In this document: positions 9,044 to 17,107 of the stretch, in pieces
Position numbering within the stretch: the first letter of the stretch is position 1
Layout of the letters: each line of letters opens with the position of its first letter
NCBI GenBank assembly: GCA_019636815.1
Contig: JAHBWT010000028.1
Span: 1 to 45,366, forward strand
DNA length: 45,366 bases
DNA from: Nitrospira sp.
Lineage (GTDB): Bacteria > Nitrospirota > Nitrospiria > Nitrospirales > Nitrospiraceae
Direction of reading: 5' to 3'
Made by a program: the position numbers and the translations under genes
Notes under the pieces: generated by a model
Database searches by the model: none
The model's input: the letters and a program-made list of their open reading frames with translations, nothing else
Told to the model about the DNA's origin: nothing

Positions 9044-9489
9044 ATCTTCATGATTTGGCCCCAGCAAGAGGGGCAAAGAAACGACGTAAGCGCATTGGAC
9101 GTGGGCCTGGTTCCGGTCATGGCAAGACCGCGACCAAAGGACATAAGGGACTCTTGGCTCGTTCAGGTGGAGGCAAACGTCCGGGTTTCGAAGGTGGCCA
9201 GATGCCGTTGGTGCGTCGGCTCCCAAAGTTTGGTTTCACAAACCCATTCCGAGTGGAATATACGATTGTGAACCTCGCGAGTTTTGCCGAATGGAGAGGG
9301 AGCGACATAGTTACTCCGCAGGCCATGGTCGATGCTGGGTTGGTGAAGCGGAAAAAGCTGCCGATTAAGATTCTGGGCAATGGTGAGCTCAAGAAGCCAC
9401 TCGTCGTTCAGGCTCATAAGTTCAGCAAGTCAGCAGAGGCGAAAATCCAAGCAGCCGGAGGGCGAGTCGAGGTCATCGGCGGTGCTTGA
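9040..9489 (+). CDS. rplO: 50S ribosomal protein L15
   Basis: Late-assembly large-subunit protein. It has 149 residues (typical 144-148). The N-terminal region is glycine- and arginine-rich with [20 protein letters not shown], followed by [17 protein letters not shown]. The C-terminal [16 protein letters not shown] is a family hallmark. The gene overlaps rpmD by four bases and secY by eight. Confidence 0.96.
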
Positions 9490-10801
9490 ACGGCTCCTCA
9501 CCAGTTTTCAGAATATCTTTAAGATTCCCGAGCTGCGTACTCGAGTTCTATTCACGCTCGGAATGTTGGTTGTCTATCGGGTCGGGTCTCATATTCCAAC
9601 TCCTGGTATCAACGGAGACGCGCTATCCGAATTCTTGCAGAAACAGGGTGGAGCTCTGTTGGGGTTCCTCGATATTTTTTCAGGCGGCTCGTTGTCTCGT
9701 CTGACGATCTTTGCGCTGGGCATCATGCCATATATCAGCGCCTCGATTATTCTTCAATTGCTGACGGTCGTCATTCCGCATTTGACCAAGTTAGCCAAGG
9801 AGGGTGAACGAGGCCGCAAAAAGATTATTCAGTACACGCGGTTTGGAACGATCGGCATTGCCCTGATTCAAGGATTCGGTATTGCGGTTGGGTTGGAACA
9901 AATGAATCAAGGGGCCTTTGTCCTCAGCGCAGGATGGGGGTTCCGTCTTATGACGGTGATCACGCTTACAGCCGGTACAGGGTTCTTGATGTGGCTCGGT
10001 GAGCAGATCACTGAGCGAGGAGTTGGGAACGGGATCTCATTAATCATTTTTGCAGGGATCGTCGCTCGGCTCCCATCGGCGGTGGCCCAGACTTACAATC
10101 TGTATGAGATCGGCCAACTCAATGCGTTCTTACTGGTGGCTCTAGCTTTCTTGATGATCGCTGTCGTGGCAGCAATCGTGTTTTTGGAAAGCGGACGGCG
10201 AAAGATACCGGTACAGTATGCGAAGCGAGTGATCGGGCGGAGGGTGTATGGGGGGCAAAGCACACATATTCCATTGAAGATCAATACAGCCGGTGTGATC
10301 CCTCCCATATTTGCCTCGTCGATCATTGCGTTTCCTGCGACCATCGCAGGGTTTTTTGAGACACCGTGGGTAAAATCTATCGGGATGCATTTGGCTCCTG
10401 GATCGCTACTCTACACTCTCCTGTATGTGGGGTTGATCATTTTTTTCTGTTTCTTCTACACTGCGGTCGTCCTTAACCCCGTCGATATGGCCGACAATAT
10501 GAAAAAATACGGAGGATTCATCCCTGGGATCAGGCCTGGGCAACGAACTTCCGATTATATCTACAATGTACTGACGAAGATCACATTCGCGGGCGCGATT
10601 TATCTCGCCATTGTCTGTGTGATCCCTGAACTCCTGATTTACAAGCTGAATGTCCCTTTTTACTTCGGAGGGACTTCGCTGCTGATTGTCATTGGTGTTG
10701 GGCTCGACACTGCGCAGCAGATTGAATCCCACATGTTGATGCGTAACTATGAGGGGTTTTTGGGTAAAGGCATGGCTCCATTACGCGGGCGAAGCGGGTA
10801 A
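9482..10801 (+). CDS. secY: Preprotein translocase subunit SecY
   Basis: Channel-forming inner-membrane subunit of the Sec translocon, working with SecE, SecG, SecA and ribosomes. GTG 9482 was chosen ([19 protein letters not shown]), giving 439 residues, close to the usual 430-445; the frame is open to 9380 but that part lies inside rplO. About ten hydrophobic segments are visible. Family motifs include the plug region with FLDIFSGGSLSRLTIFALG, then GIMPYISASIILQLL, and GQRTSDYIYNVL near the end. It sits in the standard spc position between rplO and adk. Confidence 0.96.
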   Translation: MLERLLTSFQNIFKIPELRTRVLFTLGMLVVYRVGSHIPTPGINGDALSEFLQKQGGALLGFLDIFSGGSLSRLTIFALGIMPYISASIILQLLTVVIPHLTKLAKEGERGRKKIIQYTRFGTIGIALIQGFGIAVGLEQMNQGAFVLSAGWGFRLMTVITLTAGTGFLMWLGEQITERGVGNGISLIIFAGIVARLPSAVAQTYNLYEIGQLNAFLLVALAFLMIAVVAAIVFLESGRRKIPVQYAKRVIGRRVYGGQSTHIPLKINTAGVIPPIFASSIIAFPATIAGFFETPWVKSIGMHLAPGSLLYTLLYVGLIIFFCFFYTAVVLNPVDMADNMKKYGGFIPGIRPGQRTSDYIYNVLTKITFAGAIYLAIVCVIPELLIYKLNVPFYFGGTSLLIVIGVGLDTAQQIESHMLMRNYEGFLGKGMAPLRGRSG

Positions 10802-14325: not shown

Positions 14326-15330
14326 ATGATCAAAGCGATGAAAGACTTTCAGATCCCGATGCGGGTGGAAGTCGACAGGGATGCACAGTCGCCCACATTC
14401 GGGCGGTTTACAACGGAAGCGTTCGAGCGAGGGTTCGGCACGACGATTGGCAATGCCCTCCGTCGCATTTTGTTGTCGTCGCTTACGGGGGCTGCCGTGA
14501 CCACCGTGAAGATCGAAGGAGTCGTCCACGAATTCTCGACGATCGCCGGTGTGACGGAAGATGTTACGGCGATTATTCTGAACATTAAGAGTCTGCGGTT
14601 GGCTCTCCACACGGATAAACCGAAGACGATTCGGCTGAAGAAGAAGGGGCCAGGAGAAGCAAAGGGCTCAGACATCCTCCATGACGCTGATGTGACGATT
14701 TTGACGCCTGATCTGCATATCGCCACGCTCGACAAGGATGCGACGTTGGACATTGAAATGACCATCAAGCATGGGCGTGGCTATGTGCCGGCAGAGCGCA
14801 ATAAAGAAGAAGGGTTGCCGATCGGAGTGATTGCGATCGACTCTATTTTCTCGCCGATCAAACGAGTAAATTTCTATGTGGAGAATGCGCGCGTCGGACG
14901 CATGACCGACTATGACAAGCTGACCATGGAGATCTGGACGGATGGCACCATCAGTCCCAGAGACGCCCTATCAACAGGGGCCGGTATCTTACGTGAGCAT
15001 TTGGATATCTTTATCAATCCCGAAGAACGAAGCGAAGGAAAGAGCGAAGCGGGTTATGAGGAGTCCCAACGAGAAGTGAATAGAAATCTCTCGCGCAGTG
15101 TCAATGAATTGGAGTTGTCTGTTCGAGCGGCCAATTGCCTCAAGAATGCCAATATCAAAACAATTGCCGATCTCGTGCAAAAATCGGAAGGCGAAATGCT
15201 CAGGACGAAGAACTTCGGGAAAAAGTCTCTCAATGAGATCAAGGAAATTCTTACAGAGATGGGACTTTCGCTGGGGACTAAAATAGAGGCTGGGTCTTCG
15301 CCGCACAATGGAAGCCCAAAGTCTGAATGA
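14326..15330 (+). CDS. rpoA: RNA polymerase alpha subunit
   Basis: Assembly platform of RNA polymerase and target of activators. The start ATG 14326 follows GGAGGG (14314-14319) by six bases and gives 334 residues; the frame is open to 14278. The N-terminal domain has [19 protein letters not shown] and [13 protein letters not shown]. The C-terminal domain, which contacts UP elements, has [20 protein letters not shown] and [20 protein letters not shown]. It sits between rpsD and rplQ as in the alpha operon. Confidence 0.97.
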
Positions 15331-15354
15331 CGTTTTTTAGCCGAGGGGAACACC

Positions 15355-15789
15355 GTGCGACATAGGAAAAAAGGACGACAACTTGGGCGGCAGACCAAGC
15401 ATCGAGGGGCACTATTCAGAAACTTGGTCACCTCATTATTGGAGCAGGAGCGGATCGAAACGACCGGAGCTAAGGCCAAGGAGATACGGGGATTTACCGA
15501 TCGTATGATTACGCTGGGTAAGGAAGGCACTCTGCCGGCGAGACGACGGGCTCTTGGATTTCTTCGTAGCAAGGCAGTGGTCTCCAAGCTATTCAACGAC
15601 GTCGCAGCACGGTTCAAGGATCGAGCAGGCGGGTACACCAGGATCATCAAAACGCGTCGCCGTGTTGGTGACGCGGCGGAAATGGTCGCTATCGAGCTGG
15701 TTTCCCGCCAGGAGATCCCCCACAAGAAAACAACGACTGCTTCCACAGCGCAGCCAGCGTCAGAAGGAGAGTCGAAATCATCGACATAG
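15355..15789 (+). CDS. rplQ: 50S ribosomal protein L17
   Basis: Large-subunit protein near the tunnel exit. It has 144 residues; the family core ends at about residue 118, and a low-complexity threonine- and serine-rich tail follows. [17 protein letters not shown] and [20 protein letters not shown] are canonical. The start is GTG 15355 with AGGGGAA upstream. It is the last gene of the ribosomal run, followed by the palindrome at 15817. Confidence 0.96.
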
Positions 15790-15816
15790 CCTTTCTGGAC
15801 TAATCCGCTCGACAAG

Positions 15817-15862
15817 AACTAAACAGACTCCCACATGTGCACATGTGGGAGTCTGTTTAGTT
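15817..15862 (+). terminator. 46-bp perfect palindrome, probable terminator of the ribosomal run
   Basis: Two 23-base arms are exact reverse complements, meeting at 15839/15840 with no spacer. The left arm begins AACTAAACAGACTCCCAC and the centre is CATGTGCACATG. In RNA this would fold into a very stable hairpin with the central bases forming the loop. There is no long U tract; only TTTCTAG follows. It lies 27 bases after the rplQ stop and just before the lptC promoter. Termination is inferred from position; a processing or bidirectional role is also possible. Confidence 0.75.
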
Positions 15863-15880
15863 TCTAGACCCAGACGGACG

Positions 15881-15909
15881 TTTACATGATAGCTTGTGCA
15901 TGCTACGAT
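15881..15909 (+). promoter_or_regulatory. Sigma-70-type promoter for lptCAB
   Basis: TTTACA at 15881-15886 and TACGAT at 15904-15909 are 17 bases apart, close to the consensus. The site lies between the terminal palindrome and lptC, 45 bases before the lptC start, so it would drive the LPS transport genes separately from the ribosomal run. Confidence 0.6.
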
Positions 15910-15954
15910 CGTGCCAAGTATCGTTGTGAGCTTGTTCTGGAGCACACCTAACTC

Positions 15955-16527
15955 ATGTGGGAGATTATCGCGAGACGTACTCTTCTCGCAGCGAGTGTGT
16001 TATTGGCCGTCTTCCTCGGATATCTTCTCGTCAGAAATGCAGATTCAGTGCCGACTAACCGACCGGTTGTTCCTGAAGCCATGGAACAAGCCGATGCCAA
16101 GCTCTCGGAATTTACTTTTAAGCAATCGAAAGGCGATGTGGTGCAATGGCAAGTCCAGGCGAAACAGGCGCGAGTATTTGAACAAGAACAGCAAGCCTTC
16201 CTCCAGGATGTTGCTCTCACTTTCTATGGGGAAGAAGGTGAAAAGGTGACGGTCTATGGCGATGAGGGAACACTCGATACTGCGAGCAAGGATTTTGCTC
16301 TGTCGAATCGCGATGTGCCCGTCATCGTGACAACCAGGAGCGGATACACGATTTATACCAACCATTTGGTTTGGACGGATAAATCCAGAGAAATTCGGAC
16401 AGAAGATCCTGTCCGAATTGTTGGGCATGGGTTGGAGATACGAGGTCTTGGATTGCTCGGAAAAATGGAGTCGGAAGAATTTGAGGTTCTACGCGATGTT
16501 CATGTGGATCTCGTTCCTGCTTCTTAG
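15955..16527 (+). CDS. lptC: LPS export protein LptC
   Basis: Bitopic inner-membrane protein that passes LPS from LptBFG to periplasmic LptA. It has 190 residues with one N-terminal transmembrane segment (about residues 7-26, TLLAASVLLAVFLGYLLV) and a periplasmic beta-jellyroll of the LptC/YrbK type. The repeated strand pattern and segments such as VTVYGDEGTLDTASKDF and VPVIVTTRSGYTIYTNHLVW fit the family. Identification also rests on the following lptA and lptB. An 11-bp inverted repeat lies in its 3' part, and lptA overlaps its end by 32 bases. Confidence 0.85.
   Translation: MWEIIARRTLLAASVLLAVFLGYLLVRNADSVPTNRPVVPEAMEQADAKLSEFTFKQSKGDVVQWQVQAKQARVFEQEQQAFLQDVALTFYGEEGEKVTVYGDEGTLDTASKDFALSNRDVPVIVTTRSGYTIYTNHLVWTDKSREIRTEDPVRIVGHGLEIRGLGLLGKMESEEFEVLRDVHVDLVPAS
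16392..16419 (+). repeat. Inverted repeat inside lptC
   Basis: Two perfect 11-base arms, AATTCGGACAG and CTGTCCGAATT, are separated by AAGATC. It lies in coding sequence about 75 bases before the lptA start. The stem could affect mRNA stability or lptA translation, but it may also be chance, as the encoded residues (IRTEDPVRI) look ordinary. Confidence 0.6.
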
Positions 16528-17107
16528 TGTCATATGTGCAGAAAGCGCGTCCGCCGCTCTTTCCACGGAGTCAGGGACCCTGAAGCAGAGCGTTGAGGCG
16601 CCGGGTGTCCCAACCACCATTACGTCTAAGAAAATGACCGTCCGCAATCAAGATAGCCAGGCAGTATTTGAGGGGATGGTGGTATTGACGCGAGGTTCTC
16701 TGGTTGTTCACTCAGACAAAATGATTGTGTCGTTTCATTCTCGAAAGCGTGACCTTATACAGCCATTGTCCGGTAACGCGGATCATGGAGAGTCGGCGCA
16801 GGGCCTCCCCACACCAAAAGCAGGCGGCGCCGCATCGACGATTTCGAATCGTTCCGTCAGTCGGATCGAGGCGACCGCGGACACGCACCATGTGAAGATC
16901 GAGTATGAGAATGGCAACGCCACATGTCAAAAAGCCGTCTATTTCGTCGACGGTGAAAAAGTAGTGCTCACCGGTGATCCAGTGGCATGGGAACGGGGAA
17001 CGCGTGTCAGTGGTAAACGGATCACAATTTTTCTGGCCGAAGAACGAAGCGTGGTAGAGGGAGGTTCTCACGTTCGCATCGAAGGTGAGGGAACGAATAC
17101 GCCATGA
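16496..17107 (+). CDS. lptA: LPS transport protein LptA (OstA-like)
   Basis: Periplasmic bridge protein that carries LPS to the outer membrane LptDE. The start ATG 16496 was chosen because it has GAGG at 16483-16486 and begins directly with a signal peptide (MFMWISFLLLSVICAESASA); the frame is open to 16418. That gives 203 residues. The OstA domain includes ITSKKMTVRNQDSQAVFEG and GSLVVHSDKMIV, then a proline- and glycine-rich insert, then VVLTGDPVAWERGTRVSGKR. It overlaps lptC by 32 bases and lptB by four. Confidence 0.87.
   Translation: MFMWISFLLLSVICAESASAALSTESGTLKQSVEAPGVPTTITSKKMTVRNQDSQAVFEGMVVLTRGSLVVHSDKMIVSFHSRKRDLIQPLSGNADHGESAQGLPTPKAGGAASTISNRSVSRIEATADTHHVKIEYENGNATCQKAVYFVDGEKVVLTGDPVAWERGTRVSGKRITIFLAEERSVVEGGSHVRIEGEGTNTP

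Follow-up and report, generated by a model that had tools for sequence, protein, structure and literature searches.

The window analysed here, a stretch of 45,366 nucleotides from a Nitrospira genome, carries rpoA and rplQ followed, according to NCBIfam models, by lptC, an lptA-like gene with a score under the curated threshold, lptB, and rpoN. Between rplQ and lptC lies a perfect palindrome, which starts 27 nt past the rplQ stop codon and ends 18 bp upstream of a conserved promoter-like element of lptC (Table 1). Chance alone would yield one promoter-like site of this kind when the region is shuffled; the conservation of the element is the stronger point. The block around it (15875-15920) was missing in L077, where the contig ends, and in L079, L108, and L210. 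In one relative (G011), the block is located on contig C3 and rplQ on contig C1; an LptC of 71 % identity is encoded just downstream of the block there (L124), and, judged from this genome, lptC and the promoter-like block seem to have been relocated as a unit. Another relative (G019, contig C4, 2595-2948) has a second stretch that resembles L17 but is diverged (47 % identity) and carries an internal stop, perhaps as a contamination of that bin.

Table 1 Features of the rplQ-lptC region and of the palindrome located in it
Feature	Position	Strand	Remarks
rplQ, ribosomal protein L17	15355..15789	+	NCBIfam TIGR00059, E 1.7e-40; directly upstream of the hairpin
Perfect 46-bp palindrome	15817..15862	.	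Putative hairpin of an intrinsic terminator for the rplQ operon
Stem 5' arm, 21 nt	15817..15837	+	Pairs through its outer 9 nt with the T-rich side
Tetraloop TGCA	15838..15841	+	Self-complementary
Stem 3' arm	15842..15862	+	
T-rich tract TGTTTAGTTTCT	15854..15865	+	8 T in 12; aligns with TTTTTGTTTC in relatives; overlaps the palindrome arm
Promoter-like TTTACA-17-TACGAT before lptC	15881..15909	+	81 of 85 distinct spacers match a pattern for the block
lptC, first downstream gene	15955..16527	+	NCBIfam TIGR04409, E 5e-23

An inverted-repeat search bore out the palindrome as it had been described in a sequence-only reading of this DNA: its two arms (15817-15839 and 15840-15862) comprise 23 nt each and are 100 % complementary, with no spacer between them. 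The runner-up in the window, among inverted repeats with arms at most 60 nt apart, has 20 nt and 85 % complementarity. About 6e-10 palindromes of this kind would be expected in 45,366 random bases (4^-23 × 45,366), and the longest perfect arm in 20 Markov shuffles of the window was 12 nt. A sample of the genome consisting of the window and 40 stretches (673,565 of 4,010,948 bases, 17 %) contained 26 perfect hairpins with arms of at least 11 nt and loops of 0-10 nt, among which the palindrome stands first with an arm of 23 and the next follows with 16. An Rfam scan of the window at gathering scores gave no matches.

The sequence-only reading had also proposed to look for further copies in the genome, and the palindrome proved to be single as far as it was searched for: its 28-base core, with up to three mismatches allowed, gave no second match in that search, and a DNA search of both strands of the own genome returned it at one place only. 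The exact 24-base core was absent from viral contigs. Perfect palindromes are typical of REP or MITE-like repeats and of assembly artefacts, and the perfection of the present one would be in line with an inserted repeat or an artefact. Such repeats would, however, be expected in many copies, and dozens of separate assemblies have a related hairpin at the orthologous site, as described below, which makes this origin very improbable.

In its RNA form, the palindrome offers 21 Watson-Crick pairs and one G-U pair, closed by the loop UGCA, and the stem continues through AGAA/UUCU when one bulge is allowed. It is because the central TGCA is self-complementary that no spacer is visible in the DNA palindrome. 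The fold energy of the region 15790-15900 corresponds to a z-score of -5.73. A stable GC-rich hairpin is thus present 3' of rplQ, as is usual for an intrinsic terminator, and a T-rich tract follows directly 3' of the GC-rich core, as it does in the relatives. The tract of the window is weaker than that of most relatives set beside it, with 5 T in the first 8 positions after GAGTC. The first description had missed it, stating that there was no long T tract; it lies mostly inside the right arm and seemed to be lacking because the arms had been drawn to take in most of TGTTTAGTTTCT.

The stretch following rplQ was read in 81 loci, i.e., the one in the window and the best 80 of 352 found, giving 80 distinct spacers. 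When the top-scoring hairpin of each spacer was considered, it comprised 12 or more pairs and began 20-50 nt from the first base of the stop codon in 55 spacers. The 25 others divide into 11 whose hairpin of this size lies at 81-89 nt, 5 with one at 3-13 nt, and 9 without any. Stem positions 1, 2, 4, and 6-12 are paired in all of the 46 hairpins that have a tetraloop (46/46), and most of these always-paired positions vary in sequence. Cut-outs of 45 of these hairpins were aligned with MAFFT, resulting in 44 distinct rows. Pairing was observed in 95.9 % of the 660 cells compared with 80.2 % in shuffles, cells with changes on both sides numbered 107 compared with 27, and the covariation score was 0.543 compared with 0.238; for each of these measures, 0 of 500 shuffles came as high. 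The count of stem pairs that had changed on both sides (12 of 15; shuffled mean 9.3, 5 of 500 as high) stands closer to the shuffles than do the pairing and covariation scores. Each row had been trimmed to the surroundings of its best hairpin, which biases the alignment toward pairing; slid versions of the alignment, which share the same cut, pair at 37-63 %, a far lower score that does not by itself remove this bias. In the 44 rows, pairing is thus kept by compensatory changes, as would be expected of a terminator, and the comparison with relatives that had been recommended earlier came out in favor of a conserved stem.

These changes also bear on the notion that the palindrome is a dyad DNA site for a regulator, for instance of the promoter-like element of lptC. 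Its perfect symmetry and its closeness to that element would suit such a site. However, the arm sequence changes in a compensated fashion among the relatives, the core is present in a single copy in the genome, and a regulator would not call for the T-rich 3' asymmetry seen at this site. A regulator site is therefore highly unlikely, and the protein binding site that had been among the roles first offered does not agree with an arm sequence that varies while its pairing persists.

The asymmetry was apparent from the flanks of the core in the 55 hairpins: on average, 7.8 of the 12 nt that follow it are T, and 4.1 of the 12 nt that precede it are A. In 51 of the 55, T in the 3' flank outnumbers A in the 5' flank, and the two are equal in 3. 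Many rows gradually lose their pairing past stem position 15, where the 3' side is mostly T (45 of 46 at position 20), whereas the 5' side drifts and does not remain A. A T-rich 3' side combined with a drifting 5' side points to an intrinsic terminator that acts in the + direction.

Alternatively, the hairpin could be an RNase III processing site, which was also among the roles first offered, or a stem that stabilizes the 3' end of the mRNA, with termination taking place elsewhere or by Rho. A stem of 21 bp corresponds to approximately two helical turns and is long enough for RNase III, and an RNase III gene is present in the genome. So is a gene for Rho, which could do the termination at the end of rplQ instead, and terminator-like sites are few, with 23 on both strands of the 673,565 sampled bases, compared with 7 in one shuffle, two of the 23 being the palindrome element on its two strands. 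Against this stands the observation that 36 of the 55 hairpins at the site have just 14-16 pairs, G-U pairs included, and that a T-rich 3' side, for which processing has no need, is common to the 55. A role in processing or stabilization is therefore considered unlikely, and none of the present results spoke for RNase III processing in particular.

Termination, which was among the roles suggested in the sequence-only reading, is strongly supported by the position of the hairpin, its covariation, and its conserved T-rich 3' side. Judged from the sequence, the palindrome is, with a probability of roughly 90 %, a Rho-independent terminator of the ribosomal protein/rpoA/rplQ transcript. RNA polymerase that has moved past rplQ would transcribe the GC-rich core GACUCCCACAUG-UGCA-CAUGUGGGAGUC, and the folded core would halt transcription over the ensuing U-rich UGUUUAGUUUCU. 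In the window genome and those closest to it, the flank 5' of the core is complementary to the U-rich side, so that the stem extends through it and looks like a perfect palindrome. We infer the formation of one transcript by the upstream genes, its termination at the palindrome, and the efficiency of this step. The palindrome most likely belongs to a common class of element that recurs at this site in Nitrospira, its stem being exceptionally long. In this way, an odd perfect palindrome finds its explanation as a probable operon terminator.

A standard terminator scan of 15300-16600 returned no terminator, where 1.2 were expected in shuffles, and we think that it missed the element because the stem takes up the T tract. 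A separate scan scored the core plus its tail as a terminator on both strands. Simple terminator scans can thus miss elements whose stem incorporates the T tract. Elsewhere in the window, a terminator-like hairpin followed by TTTTTT (10333-10351) was seen inside a 473-aa ORF (9380-10801), presumably secY; this hairpin is probably there by chance. In L083, L087, L094, L095, L102, and L103, a different hairpin of 19-21 pairs with a T tail is located approximately 81-131 nt past the rplQ stop codon, and, judged from these hairpins, one terminator seems to have given way to another in the course of Nitrospira evolution.

For the comparison of stems and loops, 121 loci were read, which gave 85 distinct spacers, 71 of them with a hairpin in the range used. 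On a tree of 69 of these 71 rows, built from upstream genes, the window falls in a clade of seven genomes with a support of 100/100. If stems are confined to uninterrupted Watson-Crick pairs and loops to 3-8 nt, the window has 21 pairs and five other members of the clade have 19-20; in the seventh (L036), 16 perfect pairs are followed by a bulge and more pairing. The longest perfect stem outside the clade, among the 85 rows, has 16 pairs, and perfect stems of more than 16 bp are found only in six of the seven clade genomes. With G-U pairs and up to two mismatches allowed, 19 of the 71 hairpins reach at least 19 pairs, and as 13 of these are located outside the clade, long stems are not special to it under looser pairing. 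The lower stem varies between the clade genomes but is fully paired in six of them, and pairwise alignments revealed that each arm of the window is one base longer than its counterpart in L036 and L032. The perfect symmetry had been ascribed to selection or a recent origin; both are partly borne out, selection by the pairing kept in many Nitrospira genomes, and a recent origin by the extra perfect length in one clade.

Loops that are exact reverse complements of each other recur among close relatives, in four cases when separated by eye on the tree. The loops of L075 and L076 are GAGA and TCTC, with only 6 other differences in 166 positions; those of L033 and L174 are AACT and AGTT on identical 20-pair arms, and the same two loops distinguish L033 from L032. 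L051 differs from L057 and L189 by GTTC/GAAC, and L095 from L102 by TGT/ACA. The arms are nearly or fully identical in L075/L076 and L033/L174, and have a few changes in L095/L102 and several in L051/L057. Exact inversion of a loop between conserved arms is what hairpin template switching would produce, and the inversions exceed the number expected from loop composition: 5 of 86 close tetraloop pairs are inverted, compared with 0.62 when loops were shuffled among rows (P 0.0014), a count in which the pairs are not independent and reduce to the four cases on the tree. Where two close relatives have loops that are equally long but not the same (196 pairs), the loops are reverse complements in 6 pairs, reverses in none, and complements in 2, TGT/ACA being both a reverse complement and one of the 2 complements. 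The corresponding numbers for 1,362 distant pairs are 6, 5, and 7. Two of the four cases require only two base changes, and the argument therefore rests most on L075/L076, with four, and then on L095/L102, with three. The loop of the window is self-complementary, and an inversion would thus be invisible there.

As a control, other hairpins were compared in one pair of sister genomes. In 400 kb, 28 hairpins with arms of at least 9 nt were found, of which 23 had an ortholog (1 partial) and 22 were compared. No inversion was observed among these 22, a comparison of little power, since 20 of the loops were the same and 2 had changed. Arm pairs had changed on one side in 13 instances and on both sides in 1.

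The recurrent inverted loops may be the signature of hairpin template switching or of inversion. During replication, the nascent strand would copy one arm off the other, by which stems would turn perfect and lengthen at their outer end into the T tract, and loops would be inverted. Template switching would explain both the loop inversions and the perfect arms, and recombinational inversion between the arms would account for the loop inversions as well; as far as sequence comparison can tell, we infer that either process helps to keep the arms perfect. At somewhat less than even odds, mutation templated by hairpins shapes the operon terminators of Nitrospira, and the 46-bp palindrome would be a mutational product that is tolerated by selection for termination. 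If so, terminator loops would form a natural record of the frequency of template switching in a wild bacterium and, should the inversions hold up, conserved terminators could serve as a simple reporter of this process in wild bacteria. Among the open-access papers searched, judged by title and the opening of the abstract, no paper was found on template switching at bacterial terminators, and none of the matches listed dealt by its title with the palindrome site itself.

The palindrome resembles known intrinsic terminators in its GC-rich hairpin, tetraloop, and T-rich 3' side and in its position after the last gene of the run. With its A-rich 5' and T-rich 3' flanks, it is similar to the terminators called bidirectional in the TERMITe paper (PMC12207403). 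Median hairpin lengths given there are 20-35 nt for the species treated, and the palindrome differs from these in having 42 nt in Watson-Crick stem pairs. A further difference from intrinsic terminators is that its T tract is interrupted and paired into the stem. Template switching has been documented with reporters in the laboratory (PMC7202029) and has been proposed for rRNA hairpins (PMC8794818). In the latter paper, hairpins maintained by template switching were reported from rRNA and microRNA genes (Monttinen and Loytynoja 2022), and its Table 1 gives "loop inversion only" and "multiple compensatory mutations" as enriched over simulation, whereas single compensatory changes and a compensatory change combined with loop inversion were not enriched. 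The Nitrospira hairpins share with those described there the compensated multi-base changes and the inverted loops between close relatives; they differ in that an operon terminator is concerned instead of rRNA and microRNA genes. Quasipalindrome correction in E. coli, in which an imperfect inverted repeat is made more perfect by one mutational event, as set out in PMC7202029, is similar in its outcome, an inverted repeat that has become more perfect, and differs in having been followed in reporter experiments, where the present case relies on sequence comparison.
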